The position numbers were made by a program, and so were the translations under genes. 64,000 nt of DNA from Acidobacteriota bacterium (GTDB lineage Bacteria > Actinomycetota > AC-67): NCBI GenBank assembly GCA_016208485.1, contig JACQXY010000019.1:4505-68504 (forward strand), given 5' to 3'. Each line of letters begins with the position of its first letter. Positions within the stretch are counted from its first letter, which is position 1. Shown here one piece after another: positions 27,380 to 34,278 of the stretch. The notes beneath the pieces were generated by a model. That model ran no database searches. It saw nothing but the letters and a program-made list of their open reading frames with translations, and was not told the DNA's origin.

Positions 27380-28915
27380 ATGAGCAGTCAACTCTGTCCT
27401 TCGTGTGGATCGGTGCTCGCGCCGGGAACCCCTGTCTGCGGTTCCTGCGGAGCGCGCCTTGCACAGGGACCACCCGCTTCCCCCGGAGCGCCCGGCGCAC
27501 CATCCGGTCCTCCCGCAGGAACCCGATACCCGCCGCCCCCGCCGCTCGTAAGGCCGCCGGCTGGCCCTCCTGGCGGGCCCCCTCCGGTGTCAGGTTCTCC
27601 TCCCACGGTTTCGAGCGCCCCGGGAGGGGCCGGAAGGAATCGCAAGCTTCTCGCCGGGCTGGCGGCGCTCGCTCTCCTCGTCGCCGGCGGCGTGATCGTG
27701 GCCATCGTCGGCGGCGGGGACTCGGACTCCTCGGGTGAAGGGGAGATCCTGATGGAACCGGTCGGCGCGGCGGTTCCCGACCCGTTCACCGAGTCGGTTG
27801 CCCTGGCCGAAGCCGCCGTGGAGCCGGTTCCGCTTTCATCCGACGCCGCCACGAGCGCGCCTCCAGCCACCGCGACCGGGGTTCCCACGACCGCGACCGG
27901 GGCTCCGGCGGCGCAGGTCGGCCTTCACCAGGTGAGGGGGTCTCAGCCGGGCCTCTACGGCGGCACGCGCAGGAGAGCTTCATGTGACCGCGAGCAGATC
28001 ATTCGCTTCCTCGAGTCCCATCCGGACAAGGCCGCCGTGTGGGCCGGGGTGCAGGGCATCTCGACGTCGGAGATACCCTCGTTCGTGCGCGGGTTGACGC
28101 CGGTGGTGCTCCGTCAGGACACGCGCGTCACGAACTACGGCTATCGGAGTGGCCGGGCGACGCCGAGGCAGGCGGTGCTGCAGGCAGGCCACGCTGTGCT
28201 CGTCGACGAGCTCGGCGTTCCGCGCGCGAAGTGCTCTTGCGGCAACCCGCTCTCTCCCCCGAGGCCGGTGAAGAGGAAGGCGCACTATGCCGGCAACCGG
28301 TGGCCGAAGTTCTCTCCCACCACGCTGGTCGTGGTGATCGTCCACGTGCCGGTCAAGGAGTTCGTTCTGGTCGACGTCTCGACCGGGGTTCCGTTCGTGC
28401 GCAAGCCCGCGACGGAAGGCGCCGACGACGCCGACGTGCCCGAGGACCTGAGGTGCGGGCTCGTCCCCGATGCCCCCGCCTGCCAGACAGGAACACCGGA
28501 CGGCGGAGAGCAAACGCCTGCCGGCGAAGGGCCGCCCGCCGTGGGCGAGCCTCAGGCGATCTTCAAGATCGACTCGATCCAGGGGACCATGAACGGCCCC
28601 TCGAACCCCAGCGCGTTCAGCATCTCGAGCACCGCACGGATCGTGAAGATCATGACCTACCACTGGAACGGCGCGAAGGGGAAGACCCCCGGGACGATCG
28701 GGCTGCGCGCCTCCGACGGCACCATGTTCGGACCGTGGAATGCAACCGGTAGGCCCGGCCAGGGCGGTGTGCCCAACGCCTACTGGTGGGTGGAGATGGA
28801 CGTCCTCATACCGCCCGGCACCTATCAGGTGATCGATTCGGATCCCGCGAGCTGGGCGTGGGCGTCCGACACCGGCGGGAGGGGCATCACGAACGTCTTC
28901 GGGTATCTGAGCTAG
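27380..28915 (+). CDS. zinc-ribbon, membrane-anchored DUF6777 protein
   Basis: A 511-residue protein. An N-terminal zinc ribbon (CPSCGSVLAPGTPVCGSCGA) is followed by a Pro/Gly-rich stretch (~30-85). A TM helix comes next (LLAGLAALALLVAGGVIVAI), then an extracellular domain with the DUF6777 signature: GLYGGTRRRASCDREQIIRF, SFVRGLTPVVLRQDTRVTNY, and CSCGNPLSPP. A C-terminal beta-sandwich-like region (~390-510: FKIDSIQGTMNGPSNPSAFS) adds a possible binding module. ATG 27380 has GGGGAGG upstream. DUF6777 function is unknown. Confidence 0.78.
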   Translation: MSSQLCPSCGSVLAPGTPVCGSCGARLAQGPPASPGAPGAPSGPPAGTRYPPPPPLVRPPAGPPGGPPPVSGSPPTVSSAPGGAGRNRKLLAGLAALALLVAGGVIVAIVGGGDSDSSGEGEILMEPVGAAVPDPFTESVALAEAAVEPVPLSSDAATSAPPATATGVPTTATGAPAAQVGLHQVRGSQPGLYGGTRRRASCDREQIIRFLESHPDKAAVWAGVQGISTSEIPSFVRGLTPVVLRQDTRVTNYGYRSGRATPRQAVLQAGHAVLVDELGVPRAKCSCGNPLSPPRPVKRKAHYAGNRWPKFSPTTLVVVIVHVPVKEFVLVDVSTGVPFVRKPATEGADDADVPEDLRCGLVPDAPACQTGTPDGGEQTPAGEGPPAVGEPQAIFKIDSIQGTMNGPSNPSAFSISSTARIVKIMTYHWNGAKGKTPGTIGLRASDGTMFGPWNATGRPGQGGVPNAYWWVEMDVLIPPGTYQVIDSDPASWAWASDTGGRGITNVFGYLS

Positions 28916-28992
28916 ATCCAGGCGCTTCCCGTTCGCGGTGCGCTCCCCGTGCGCCAGGCGGTCGGCCTGCCCGGACCACGAGACCTGGCGGT

Positions 28993-29028
28993 TTGTGCAG
29001 CGCACAACAAGATTCTCGTTCTGCACAA
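28993..29028 (+). promoter_or_regulatory. inverted-repeat site upstream of the first tandem secreted gene
   Basis: TTGTGCAG (28993-29000) and CTGCACAA (29021-29028) are perfect inverted arms 20 nt apart. TTGTGC-AGC-GCACAA forms an additional small palindrome inside. TACAAT further downstream could be a -10. The whole stretch (about 28978-29150) recurs almost unchanged before the second paralogue at 31860-32040. Confidence 0.5.
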
Positions 29029-29114
29029 TAGATTCGTGGGGGCGCTGTCCGTACAATCCTCCGAATCCCCTGCGTGGTGTGGGGACGCGATCGAGCAGGC
29101 AGGGGGGAGTGGGT

Positions 29115-31670
29115 ATGCGGCTGTGGAGGCGTACAGGCGTGGCTGACGGCTTGGAGCCCCGGGTGCGAGGGAGAACCGCAGGAGCACCCCGCCGGGGTGG
29201 GCGCTTCGGCCGGGCGCTGCTCTCGGTGGCGGTGCTGGCGAGCGCGACCGTGGTCTGGCTTCCGGGTCCGGCGGCCCAGGCCGCGCCGTCCACGACCTTC
29301 CACACCCACACGGAGTACAAGACCCCGACCGGGGCCATCATCACCACCGACGTCGACGCGCTCGTGGGCTCGCCCGCCTTCATCGACGTGGACCACAACC
29401 CGGCCACCGGATCGCTCGGCAAGGACATCAAGGTCCAACTCAGCTTCGGGGACGGGGTGTGGGCCGGCGTGGGTGTGCCCAATCTCGTGGTGGCCAGGAC
29501 GAGCGGCGTCGAGGCGGTGTTCCCGTTGCTCGTCAAGGTGTCCTTGGACGCCAACACGACCACCTACAAGACCGTCACCCTCGGCTACGACTCGCTCGCC
29601 GACACCGCCCCCGCGCAGTGGTCGGCCTTTCTCCGCTCGTGCAACGTCGTGCAGGGGACGTGCGCAACGCCGATGGTCCTCGAGTTCTTCACCACCTCGT
29701 GGGCCCACCAAAGCCCCGTCAAGACCCTCGGCGTCATCGGCGAGGTCCTGAGGACGGACGGATCCCGGCTCCAGGCCCGGGTCGACCTCACGCCACCGCC
29801 CGACCGGGTCCAGATCAGCTCCAGCCCGACGGACGTGAGCTACACGGCCTGGGATGACAACGGGCAGTACTGGGCTGCCCAGGTGGTTCCCGAAGTCAAG
29901 GTCGACATCTACGACTCGGCGGGCCTCTTCGGCCGGGCGAAGTACCTGAGCGCCGTGCTCCAGCAGGTTCCGGCCGACCTCGCCCTGGCATACGATGCCT
30001 CCACCGGAGCCGCCACCCTCGACGCCAAGGGCGGCACGCTCGGGCTCGGTCAGGTCCTGCTCTCGAGCCTGCCCCCGAGCCAGGTTGGGTCCGCCGACCG
30101 GCTGGACGAGGTCTGTGCCCCGGCGACCTGCGACGGTGTGCTGCTGCGCGACATGTCGGACCGCTACGTGCTGGAGGCCCGGGTGGCCGGCCTGCGCAAG
30201 GCCATCTACAACCCCCAGGGCCCGAGCGCCACGCTCGACACCACAGACGGCCGGGCCTTCAAGCTCGACACCCTCTCCTCGACCACCTCCACCACAACCG
30301 GCGCCTACACCCGGGCCGCAGTCGACAAGCTCCCGACGAGCGTCTCGGTGGCCCTCGGGTCGGGGACTCTCACCTACTCCGCCTCCTCAGTCGTCGGCCA
30401 GATCACCTTCGACGCCTACAACCCCAGAGGGCTCTTTGGCCAGGCGAAGTACCTGAGCGTCGATCTCCGGCAGGTCCCGACCGCGCTTGCCTTCTCGTTC
30501 AACAGCTCCACCGGAGCGGTGAGCGGCGACGCGAAGGGCGGCACGCTGGGGTACGTGAAGGCCACCGCGACGAGCGTCGATCCGTCGCAAGTCAAGTGGC
30601 CGGACTGGGTGAATGGGCACCGGGTGCGCGACGCCGAAAAGACGTGCACGTGGGTGGAGCCGTGGCCGGGGCTCCCGGGATACTGGCGGTGCCGGTACGA
30701 GTACCACTGGGAGAACTGGACCGAGAGCCAGAGCGTCGGGGGCGTCGTCCGCTGGGACAACCCCCAGACCTACGCGATCTTCGCCCGGTTCCACGACCTG
30801 CGGGGGTTCGCCTACAACCCGAGCGGGCCGAGCGGCACCCTGAAGGAGGACGGGTCGCCGTTCACGTACTTCGACGTCAACTCCGGGGGGGAGTACCTCC
30901 AGGCGTCGCTGGACCGGCGTCCCGTCGGGAGCAGCTGCGACCCGTACGCGGTCCACGTCCCCTCCTGCGTCGGGCCGAAGGACATCAGCCTCAGTGTCAG
31001 CAAGCCGAGCGGGAGCGCGTTCGTGGTGGACTACTCGGCCTCGGGCGCCGGCACCGGGCTCTACGCGAACACCAACGCAGCCGGATCCCCGATGCAGGTC
31101 AGCCTCACCAACCCGCTCCCGGCCACCTTCAGCGTGTGCAAGGCCTCGGACGCGTCCTGCAGCAACCACGTGGGTTCCTACTACGGCGACGACTCTCTGG
31201 GCTCCATCAAGTTCAGCGCGAGCCAGCACACCAACCTCAGCTACGCCGAATCCGGGGTGACCAAAGCGAACCTGTGGCTCCGCTACCTGGAGTTGGACAT
31301 GGCGTACACAGTGGACATCCCGGAGTGCACCGCGTCGGATGCCCGGGACGGCAATCGCTGTGCGCACGGTGCGATCTGGATGGACACCACCCCGCCCGGC
31401 TACGGATCGAGCTACGGCGCCTTGACGGGGACCGCCAACCTGGCCGGCTACAGCCAGAGGTTCCCCTCGGGGTTCTGGGCGCACGACCGTTTCGGCTGGT
31501 TCGAGGTCTACGCGAACTTCTCGGACGACAACATCGACTTCCGGACGGGCGGCTCCGGCTCGGCCTCCTGCCCGGCAGGCACCACCCTCGGGGAGCCCCA
31601 GAAAGTCGAGGGGTACAACTACCGGTTCATGACGAGCGCCCTATGCGGGAGCCTGGGCTCGTGGAACTGA
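29115..31670 (+). CDS. large secreted repeat protein, paralogue A of a tandem pair
   Basis: An 851-residue exported protein. ATG 29115 lies 5 nt after AGGGGGGAG. An arginine-rich n-region and signal peptide (LLSVAVLASATVVWLPGPAA) end near residue 56. The N-terminal domain (~57-265) and C-terminal domain (~657-851, with IWMDTTPPGYG and SCPAGTTLGEPQ) are shared with paralogue B at 32000. The ~390-residue middle is unique to A and holds two related units: GLFGRAKYLSAVLQQVPADL near 267 and GLFGQAKYLSVDLRQVPTAL near 435, each followed by DAKGGTLG. Cys pairs suggest disulfides. No known family or catalytic motif; a surface or extracellular structural/binding role is inferred. Confidence 0.7.
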   Translation: MRLWRRTGVADGLEPRVRGRTAGAPRRGGRFGRALLSVAVLASATVVWLPGPAAQAAPSTTFHTHTEYKTPTGAIITTDVDALVGSPAFIDVDHNPATGSLGKDIKVQLSFGDGVWAGVGVPNLVVARTSGVEAVFPLLVKVSLDANTTTYKTVTLGYDSLADTAPAQWSAFLRSCNVVQGTCATPMVLEFFTTSWAHQSPVKTLGVIGEVLRTDGSRLQARVDLTPPPDRVQISSSPTDVSYTAWDDNGQYWAAQVVPEVKVDIYDSAGLFGRAKYLSAVLQQVPADLALAYDASTGAATLDAKGGTLGLGQVLLSSLPPSQVGSADRLDEVCAPATCDGVLLRDMSDRYVLEARVAGLRKAIYNPQGPSATLDTTDGRAFKLDTLSSTTSTTTGAYTRAAVDKLPTSVSVALGSGTLTYSASSVVGQITFDAYNPRGLFGQAKYLSVDLRQVPTALAFSFNSSTGAVSGDAKGGTLGYVKATATSVDPSQVKWPDWVNGHRVRDAEKTCTWVEPWPGLPGYWRCRYEYHWENWTESQSVGGVVRWDNPQTYAIFARFHDLRGFAYNPSGPSGTLKEDGSPFTYFDVNSGGEYLQASLDRRPVGSSCDPYAVHVPSCVGPKDISLSVSKPSGSAFVVDYSASGAGTGLYANTNAAGSPMQVSLTNPLPATFSVCKASDASCSNHVGSYYGDDSLGSIKFSASQHTNLSYAESGVTKANLWLRYLELDMAYTVDIPECTASDARDGNRCAHGAIWMDTTPPGYGSSYGALTGTANLAGYSQRFPSGFWAHDRFGWFEVYANFSDDNIDFRTGGSGSASCPAGTTLGEPQKVEGYNYRFMTSALCGSLGSWN

Positions 31671-31730
31671 CCCGACGGGACGCGTAGCGCCTCGGAGCGT
31701 GCGCACGGCGGCGAGAGCGAAGCGAACACG

Positions 31731-31752
31731 GGCCTCCCGAGAAAGGGGGGCC
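31731..31752 (+). terminator. possible intrinsic hairpin after paralogue A
   Basis: GGCCTCCC-GAGAAA-GGGGGGCC: an 8-bp stem with one U-G wobble about 60 bp past the stop of paralogue A, followed by a moderately T-rich TGTGTCTGTG. Plausible transcription terminator. Confidence 0.35.
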
Positions 31753-31774
31753 TGTGTCTGTGAGGACCGTCAAG

Positions 31775-31850
31775 CACGCCGTTCGCGACGGCGAGCGCCT
31801 TGCGCGGGTCGCGCTCGGCCGCCACGGCGCCTTCCTGAGTTCTACAGCGG
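31775..31850 (-). pseudogene. trapped duplicate of the 3' end of the ABC ATPase gene
   Basis: The minus strand reads EGAVAAERDPRKALAVAN, closely matching the C-terminal EGTVAAERDPREALAIAR of the complete ATPase gene at 33490-34278. It sits at a similar distance from paralogue A as the real ATPase end sits from paralogue B. The tandem duplication therefore appears to have copied the flanking ATPase tail along with the secreted gene. Confidence 0.65.
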
Positions 31851-31877
31851 CCGGCCCGAATCATGAGACCTGGGGGT

Positions 31878-31913
31878 TTGTGCAGCGGACAACAAAGTTC
31901 TCGTTCTGCACAA
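31878..31913 (+). promoter_or_regulatory. inverted-repeat site upstream of the second tandem secreted gene
   Basis: TTGTGCAG (31878-31885) and CTGCACAA (31906-31913) with the same 20-nt spacing as at 28993-29028. The inner palindrome half GCACAA is changed to GGACAA, but the outer arms are perfectly kept. Confidence 0.5.
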
Positions 31914-31999
31914 TAGATTTGTGGGGGCGCCGTCCGTACAATCCTCCGAATCCCCTGCGTGGTGTGGGGGCGCGATTGAGCAGGTGGGGGGGAGTGGGC

Positions 32000-33397
32000 A
32001 TGCGGCTGTGGAGGCGTACAGGCGTGGCCGGCCGCGCGGAGCCCCGGGTGCGAGGGGGAACCGCAGGAGCACCCCGCTGGCAACGCCTCGGCCGGGCGCG
32101 GCTCTCGGTGGCGGCGTTGGCGAGCGCGAGCGTAGTCGGGCTCCCGGGTCCGGCCGCCCAAGCTGCGCCGTCCACGACCTTCCACCTCCACACCGAGTAC
32201 AAGAGCCCGACCGGGGCCATCGTCACCGACGACGCAGACTGGTATGCGAACGCGCCGCTCTACCGCGATGTGGACCACAACCCAGCCACCGGGGATTATC
32301 TCGGAGCGGACATCCGTGTGACGCTCTTGCTCTACCAGGAGGGCGTGCCCCATCTCGTGGTGGAGAGGCTGAGGGACGCCCCGGCGGTGTTCCCGTTGCT
32401 CGTCAAGGTGTCCATCGACGCCAACACGGACACGATGAAGAGCGCGGCGCTCGGGTACGACGCCCTCGCCGACACCGCTCCCAAGGCCTGGCAAGCCCTG
32501 CTTCCCGCATGCAGCGTTCTCATGAGCGGGTGGTGCCCGAGTACGCCGATGTACTTGGATCTCTACACCTATCCACCTGTCGGCAGCCTCGGTGTGATCG
32601 GCGAGATCCTGAGGACCGACGGCTCCAGGTTCGACGCCCGGATCGACTTCACGCCGGCCCCCTACTTCGCGCGGATCACCTACGACGCCAACGGCAGCCA
32701 GAAGAGCTTGACGTACGCGGCCCAGGACACGTCCGGCAACCCCCAGACGATCTCCGGATTCAAGGCCGACGTTCGGGACTCAGCCGGGCCCCCGATGCAG
32801 ATCAGCCTCTCCAACCCTGCGCCTGCGACTTTCGGCGTGTGCAAGGACTCGGGCCGGTACTGCAGCAACCACACGGGATCCGGCGGGGAGACTAGTGGTT
32901 CCGTCCTGTTCGACGCGAGCGAGCACACCAACCTCACCTATAGCGAATCCGGCGTGACGAAAGTGAACCTGCGGCTCCGCCACCTCCAGCTGGACTACTT
33001 CTGGACGGACACCGGAGCCTGCGCCGACATCTGGGATTCCATGTACGACACCTGGGATGCTTACTGGGCTGGGTCCCGCCACGAGACGTGCGGGTTTGGC
33101 GAGATCTGGATGGACACGACCCCGCCCGGCCTCGGTCCGGAGAGCGGCGCCCTTACTGGGACCGCCAGCCTGGGCGGCTACAGCCAGGGGTTCCGCTCGG
33201 GGTTCTGGGCCCACGACCGCTATGCCACGTTCCAGGTGGACGCTCGGCTGGAAGGCGACCACATCGCCTTCCACACGAGCAGCTCCGGCACCGTCTCCTG
33301 TCCGGCGGGCACGACCCTCGGGGAACCGCAGAGGACAGGGAACCACTATCGGTTCATGACCAGCGCCCTGTGCGGGAGCTTGGGCGTGTGGGACTGA
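32000..33397 (+). CDS. secreted protein, paralogue B of a tandem pair
   Basis: A 465-residue exported protein; ATG 32000 follows GGGGGGGAG by 5 nt. The first ~170 residues parallel paralogue A (RLWRRTGVA, signal peptide, APSTTFHLHTEYKSPTGAIV, DVDHNPATG). The last ~195 residues are also shared (PPMQISLSNPAPATFGVC, EIWMDTTPPGLG, SCPAGTTLGEPQ). The long repeat-containing middle of A is absent: DSAG at about residue 259 runs straight into the C-terminal domain. This suggests an in-frame deletion in B, or gain in A, at short similar stretches. Both proteins end about six codons after MTSALCGSLG. Function unknown. Confidence 0.7.
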   Translation: MRLWRRTGVAGRAEPRVRGGTAGAPRWQRLGRARLSVAALASASVVGLPGPAAQAAPSTTFHLHTEYKSPTGAIVTDDADWYANAPLYRDVDHNPATGDYLGADIRVTLLLYQEGVPHLVVERLRDAPAVFPLLVKVSIDANTDTMKSAALGYDALADTAPKAWQALLPACSVLMSGWCPSTPMYLDLYTYPPVGSLGVIGEILRTDGSRFDARIDFTPAPYFARITYDANGSQKSLTYAAQDTSGNPQTISGFKADVRDSAGPPMQISLSNPAPATFGVCKDSGRYCSNHTGSGGETSGSVLFDASEHTNLTYSESGVTKVNLRLRHLQLDYFWTDTGACADIWDSMYDTWDAYWAGSRHETCGFGEIWMDTTPPGLGPESGALTGTASLGGYSQGFRSGFWAHDRYATFQVDARLEGDHIAFHTSSSGTVSCPAGTTLGEPQRTGNHYRFMTSALCGSLGVWD

Positions 33398-33489
33398 CCC
33401 GACGGGACGCATAGCGCCGCGGAGCCCGCGTGCCCGCAGACGGTGGGTGGTAGTCGGCTGCAATGTCGGTCCCGACGGGGGCGCGCGGA

Positions 33490-34278
33490 TCAACCCCCGG
33501 GAGCGCGCGGCGCGCCGGCCTTTCGTAGGCTCGCGGCGACCGCCGCGCGCGCGATCGCGAGCGCCTCGCGCGGGTCGCGCTCGGCCGCGACGGTGCCCTC
33601 CTCGAGCACGATCACGCGGTCGGCCACCCCTGCGAGGAAGGCGAGGTCGTGCTCGACGATGACCAGTGAGCAGCCGCTCCGCTCGCGCCATGCGCGAAAG
33701 ACCTCGAGCAAGGCGGTGCGCTCGCCGTGCGCGAGGCCGTCGGCCGGCTCGTCGAGCAGCAGGAGACCGGTGTTCCCCCGGGGGCCAAGTTCACCGCTGC
33801 GCGCCGCGGCCACGGCGAGGTCGAGGATCCGTCGCAGGCCGGTCGACAGCTCGGACACGAAGGCGTTGTCGTGCGCGGTCAGGCCGAACGCCTCGGCGAT
33901 CTCGACTCGGTGGCGGGTATCGGCGCGCCGCGCGCCGGCGCTTTCGCACCCAACGGCGATCACCTCGCCGGTGGTGAGCGACGGGTAGAGCCGCCCGTGC
34001 TGGAATCCCCGGGTCATCCCGAGCCGCGCGCGCCGGTGTGGGGGGACGCCCGTCACGTCGCGCCCGCCGAGCAGCACGCGGCCGCGCGACGGCTCGACGA
34101 GTCCGGAGATCACGTCGAGGAGCGTCGTCTTGCCCGAGCCGTTCGGACCGATCACCCCGAGCGCCTCGCCGGCCCCGACCGAAAGGGAGACGTCCCGGAG
34201 GATCGGGGCACGCCCGATCGCCACCGACACGCCTTGCACCTCGAGGACCGCGGGGGCGGTCGTGGCGGTCTCTCTCAT
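33490..34278 (-). CDS. branched-chain amino acid-type ABC transporter ATPase (LivG-like)
   Basis: A 262-residue ATP-binding subunit. Walker A GPNGSGKTTLLDVISGL, Q-loop region TRGFQHGRLYPSL, a divergent signature ELSTGLRRILDLAVA (LSGG replaced by STGL), Walker B LLLLDEPADGL and H-loop IVEHDLAFL are visible. It overlaps the upstream fusion gene by ATGA, so translation is coupled. Together with the fused permease/ATPase and the lipoprotein it completes a HAAT/Liv-type importer. A copy of its 3' end is fossilised at 31775-31850. Confidence 0.85.
   Translation of the reverse strand: MRETATTAPAVLEVQGVSVAIGRAPILRDVSLSVGAGEALGVIGPNGSGKTTLLDVISGLVEPSRGRVLLGGRDVTGVPPHRRARLGMTRGFQHGRLYPSLTTGEVIAVGCESAGARRADTRHRVEIAEAFGLTAHDNAFVSELSTGLRRILDLAVAAARSGELGPRGNTGLLLLDEPADGLAHGERTALLEVFRAWRERSGCSLVIVEHDLAFLAGVADRVIVLEEGTVAAERDPREALAIARAAVAASLRKAGAPRAPGG

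Follow-up and report, generated by a model that had tools for sequence, protein, structure and literature searches.

A tandem pair of large actinobacterial proteins from an uncatalogued family, with probable loss of repeats in one of them

Two adjacent genes of an uncultured actinobacterium (a 2.66-Mb genome assembled in 86 contigs), here called A and B, encode large and apparently exported paralogues with related terminal domains. The two repeats that separate these domains in A are missing from B, a difference for which, judged from sequence comparison, loss of the central block is the best explanation. Both proteins belong to a family that is absent from Pfam, NCBIfam and the PDB and that combines conserved ends with repeat numbers from 0 to 12. 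The pair offers what appears to be a well-marked case of duplication and repeat loss in such genes, and a single solved structure of the confidently predicted repeat would suffice to annotate large proteins, apparently exported, from 13 genomes or more. In the following, the window denotes the whole 64,000-nt stretch of DNA that was analysed, and coordinates refer to it unless another locus is named.

Two paralogues with common ends

The genes and their parts are located as follows.

29115..31670, plus strand: paralogue A, 851 aa, with a hydrophobic N-terminal leader, an N-domain (residues ~59-230), two repeats and a C-domain (residues ~646-851)
29925..30404, plus strand: first repeat of A (residues 271-430), carrying CAPATC as an inserted loop with a Cys pair; profile E 2.3e-27
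30432..30989, plus strand: second repeat of A, from residue 440 to approximately residue 625; residues 440-494 at E 2e-11, residues 543-601 at E 4e-4
31050..31667, plus strand: C-terminal domain of A, from the alignment of homologues
32000..33397, plus strand: paralogue B, 465 aa, with the N-domain joined at DSAG to the C-domain, without a repeat
32778..32792, plus strand: putative repeat-loss junction region in B (approximate), matching A residues 270 and 656

An earlier note on this DNA had described tandem paralogues with common ends, and this description is borne out, coordinates included: residues 1-270 of A align with residues 1-263 of B at 57% identity, and residues 654-851 of A with residues 260-465 of B at 59%. 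Between the aligned ends lies a block of about 386 residues that is present in A only. Both frames are taken to be coding because of their GC content by codon position (60/54/92% in A, 60/56/87% in B). The proteins had also been called exported, a claim that stands by the appearance of the N-terminus as read by eye; a hydrophobic segment there, ending ...PAAQA-APSTT in A, suggests export. Homologues of the C-domain possess a W...R motif (FWAHDR in A) and two conserved Cys, and the residues P, T, G, W, R, C and C are invariant in their alignment. The product of the gene upstream of A (27380-28915) is a zinc-ribbon protein that contains DUF6777 (E 8e-59).

The central block of A was likewise correctly described as holding two repeats that B lacks; what had been seen as short motifs in a unique domain, however, proves to be two units of ~150 residues, the second of which is split by an insertion of ~45 residues, a loop rich in Trp and Tyr that contains a Cys pair (CTWVEPWPGLPGYWRC). 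The two repeats are 48% identical in protein, and the DNA of 29902-30044 is 74% identical to that of 30409-30551. This makes an assembly collapse of repeats unlikely for A, while such a collapse is possible for other members of the family. Chance resemblance can be set aside, since a profile built solely from the repeats of a 2041-aa protein of another genome recovers both repeats of A (E 2.3e-27 and 1e-10). The Cys-pair insertions of A (residues ~330-340 and ~510-526) occupy the same hairpin of both repeats, and repeat 3 of a 1137-aa relative (D96b) also has a Cys-paired insertion at that hairpin, which suggests loops varying on a fixed scaffold.

That B joins DSAG directly to the C-terminal domain is confirmed by profile and alignment, neither of which finds a repeat in it. 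One side of the junction corresponds to the position at which repeat 1 of A begins, the other to the equivalent point ahead of the C-domain; the break in B does fall at a repeat boundary. The ungapped DNA blocks that align between A and B have offsets of 2885, 2882, 2870 and 2861, and then of 1703, 1697, 1730 and 1727, and as these differ only by multiples of 3 the reading frame has been kept. To the earlier note B had looked like a product of recombination between short matches. Of this proposal the loss of A's block is upheld as the best explanation, but short DNA matches are not established: around A's two breakpoints about 7/10 bases agree, A and B being too diverged to place the exact break.

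An uncatalogued family with variable repeat number

Genomes were sampled at one per species and surveyed with repeat and N-domain profiles, which matched in 4 of 397 genomes of the phylum, 6 of 201 of one order and 9 of 399 of one class, while the N-domain profile alone matched in 9 of the 146 genomes of one family. The N-domain was found in 13 distinct Actinomycetota genomes by these repeat and N-domain profile searches. Members from other genera are also recovered by the N-domain model, the top ones with an E of 1e-30 or lower, and repeats follow the N-domain in all of them. In the members that could be followed the N-domain precedes 1 to 12 repeats, the largest protein reaching 2806 aa. Repeat counts are about 10 in D204, 4 in C53, 5 in D96a, 4 in D96b, 12 in G121, 2 in A and 0 in B; at several loci, which are cut by the end of the fetched stretch or of the contig, the counts are minima. 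B is the only repeat-free member seen. The pair has no described family, as had been claimed; A and B are nevertheless no orphans, having relatives in at least 13 Actinomycetota genomes, and a survey of homologues for each form finds the repeat-bearing one in all followed members and the repeat-free one in B alone.

The genome of A and B itself contains a four-repeat paralogue on another contig (C53) and a C-terminal fragment on a third (C29). Genome G002 (JAIVGO, Actinomycetota), from the same family as the A/B genome, has members of 2041, 1279 and 1137 aa, and six copies of the N-domain are present in genome G493. When genome contigs were searched with the family alignment, G002 alone matched, and the same search with A alone gave no match; nor did searches of plasmids (with A and a repeat segment) and of phages (with a repeat segment). 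A comparison of gene neighbourhoods across family members showed NHL-repeat proteins next to C53, D204 and D96b and nothing in common elsewhere. At C53 (locus L021, 345-9710) the four-repeat paralogue lies in a cluster of exported proteins, namely an Ig-like protein, a subtilase with Ig domains and the NHL-repeat protein, a type of neighbour that the G002 members have as well.

These proteins follow one plan, in which an N-domain, a variable number of repeats of 145-155 residues, predicted to be all-beta, and a C-domain make up an uncatalogued actinobacterial family of apparently exported proteins. In a tree of the repeats, computed without support values, the degenerate first repeats of different proteins group together, as do most last repeats, while middle repeats cluster mostly by protein, which fits arrays growing and shrinking in the middle. 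The two repeats of A belong with the C-terminal class in this tree, and by the alignment A has no counterpart of the family's degenerate first repeat. Because A's repeats group by position with the C-terminal class of other proteins, the absence of repeats in B is taken as a loss, which is the simplest reading of these relationships.

Database searches and predicted structure

Profile searches of A and B against Pfam, NCBIfam and PHROGs gave nothing above the curated cut-offs, and the same holds for longer members (Pfam), four members (NCBIfam) and a two-repeat segment (PHROGs). RCC_reductase, the sole hit with an E below 0.01 (0.0023, in one member), was judged to be a chance match, as was Invasin_D3 (E 0.088). 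Searches of the PDB by sequence, with full-length, repeat, N-domain and C-domain profiles, gave nothing significant. Similarly, Foldseek searches by fold gave no significant match (best E 0.066 in the PDB and 0.085 in BFVD, a viral library; TM about 0.1). The claim that the pair has no known family is in agreement with these profile, sequence and fold searches of the domains. The repeat fold is predicted to be all-beta: a model of two repeats of the 2041-aa member forms an all-beta array (pLDDT 88.5, pTM 0.82). The full-length AlphaFold model of A is poor (pLDDT 51). It is doubtful that the 145-155-residue repeat represents a new all-beta architecture without solved relatives, which in Actinomycetota would build extracellular arrays of adjustable length with Cys-stapled variable loops, or a hydrophobic groove.

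Leaders, traces of duplication and selection

The surroundings of A and B contain the following elements.

28935..28973, plus strand: remnant of the 3' part of the downstream livG-like gene, before A; its 39 nt match 33713-33751 at 87% identity (E 1.6e-7)
28963..29114, plus strand: leader of A, which has 90% identity with that of B and contains an inverted repeat and a TACAAT hexamer
31671..31698, plus strand: 3' flank of A, 93% identical to the 3' flank of B (33398-33425)
31784..31856, plus strand: remnant between A and B, from the 3' end of the downstream livG-like gene; identity is 89% with 33550-33602 (E 3.7e-15) and 83% with 33550-33625
31848..31999, plus strand: leader of B, in which the inverted repeat lies at 31878-31913
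33493..34257, minus strand: intact livG-like ABC ATPase gene, convergent and downstream of B, from which the 3' remnants derive (Pfam ABC_tran, 6.9e-22)

Nearly identical 5' regions, another feature that had been noted, are indeed present: 137 of the 152 non-coding leader bases are identical, followed by 74 of the first 81 coding bases. A and B diverge by 9% in this 233-nt tract and by 22% in the blocks that come after it (Fisher p = 3e-5). Each leader contains the inverted repeat TTGTGCAG-N20-CTGCACAA, at 28993-29028 in that of A, and the whole 2.66-Mb genome holds only these two copies, both preceding A/B. The inverted repeat looks operator-like, and the TACAAT hexamer, read by eye, lies at 29052-29057. 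From the near-identical leaders we infer a common regulation of A and B. An Rfam search of the window gave no match.

The C-terminal fragment on C29 (locus L022, 6562-7113, with flank from about 6100) is a truncated third copy that comprises the C-domain only and has an internal deletion. Behind it come two stretches derived from the livG-like gene and its flank (90% and 95%), and then folP. Since 3' pieces of the livG-like gene precede A, separate A from B and trail the C29 fragment, the duplicated unit is taken to be the gene together with the tail of its neighbour. The two remnants in the window end at different points of the livG-like gene, which means either two events or later trimming. 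These traces point to repeated duplication of such a unit, after which B lost its array by in-frame deletion.

A simple count yields a dN/dS of 0.93 between the two N-domains and of 0.58 between the two C-domains; the corresponding pN/pS values are 0.94 and 0.65. Because a GC-biased neutral simulation gives a pN/pS of 1.1-1.5, these values indicate weak purifying selection on the N-domain and moderate purifying selection on the C-domain. The same simulation rules out positive selection as a reading of the simple-count dN/dS of about 0.9. The two N-domains show hardly any constraint at the amino-acid level, as would also be expected under relaxed selection, and A and B look like genes that are kept but evolve fast.

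Proposed history and working

The ancestral state may have been one family member lying tail to tail with the livG-like ABC gene. Tandem duplication of a segment made up of the member's gene and the 3' end of its livG-like neighbour would have produced A and B, and one more copy of the segment would have become the truncated remnant on another contig. Before or around the duplication the lineage would have lost the degenerate first and the middle repeats and kept two repeats of the C-terminal type, as in A. Later, an in-frame deletion would have removed both from B, beginning at one repeat boundary and ending at the corresponding one ahead of the C-domain. The exported proteins may fold into disulphide-stabilised extracellular rods or spacers, whose repeat loops and end domains could contact the cell envelope, matrix or a substrate. 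If repeat number sets length, A and B would be the longer and the shortest version of one tool under near-identical leaders. An extracellular spacer or binding role is most likely by domain plan and by analogy with fibrillar adhesins and Periscope proteins. In eight members there is neither a sortase-type motif in the last 50 residues nor a hydrophobic stretch of transmembrane strength beyond residue 90, and because no binding domain, anchor or partner was identified, we infer the binding role rather than observe it. The scenario as a whole, i.e. duplication and repeat loss in disulphide-stabilised extracellular spacer or binding proteins whose length is set by repeat number, appears to us evenly balanced between right and wrong.

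The direction of change could be reversed, with B as the ancestral short form and the repeat block gained by A. Parsimony within the pair speaks for this and nothing more, whereas repeats are present in the outgroup paralogues and in every other member that could be followed, with relatives of A's own repeats at the corresponding positions, so that we regard a gain in A as very improbable. Somewhat unlikely, too, is that A and B are the decaying residue of a larger member, which lost repeats and now drifts with little function like the truncated C29 copy. The pN/pS near 1 of the N-domain would fit such decay, as would the reduction of C29 to a C-domain with scraps of the neighbouring gene and the fact that B has the fewest parts of any member. 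Yet the frames remain open over 851 and 465 codons with a GC3 of 87-92%, the offsets between the A and B blocks differ only by multiples of 3, the C-domain is constrained (0.65 versus the neutral 1.1-1.5), and the leaders are better conserved than the coding sequence.

A different working of the repeats is also conceivable, namely that they form a continuous beta sheet with a hydrophobic face, a groove or belt like that of AsmA/TamB, chorein and apolipoprotein B, which would hold lipid or other hydrophobic cargo outside the cell and whose length would be given by repeat number. Predicted strands in the repeats are amphipathic, with strong hydrophobic/polar alternation, and among the weak Foldseek neighbours, none of them significant, are proteins with a chorein domain or a single-layer sheet. 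Ordinary two-layer folds would be just as likely to have amphipathic strands, however, loops with Cys pairs are more in keeping with a compact domain, the A/B genome has no AsmA family member, and no structural match reached significance (PDB best E 0.066, BFVD 0.085, TM about 0.1). We consider such a groove distinctly unlikely.

Comparison with known systems

The family resembles the AsmA/TamB beta-groove proteins in its repeated amphipathic beta strands, as predicted, and differs from them in that its members have no Pfam match and no significant Foldseek match. Fibrillar adhesin-like proteins are large, repetitive, uncatalogued and exported, and many actinobacterial ones are without a known adhesive domain (PMC9210967). 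The A/B family is similarly large, repetitive and, by appearance, exported, but has no known stalk, adhesive or anchor domain in Pfam or NCBIfam, although it may contain an adhesive domain of a new type. Periscope proteins (e.g. Sgo_0707 with its SHIRT repeats) are attached to the cell surface and contain near-identical tandem repeats whose number changes at the population level (PMC8201768, PMC9704523). By contrast, the eight members inspected here are without a sortase-type motif or a stretch of transmembrane strength, and adjacent repeats in the family are 21-67% identical in protein (48% for the two of A), too diverged for the Periscope class. Both groups nevertheless appear to be exported and to carry, between end domains, a variable number of tandem domains (~50-165 residues in Periscope proteins), with recombination as the suspected cause of the variation.
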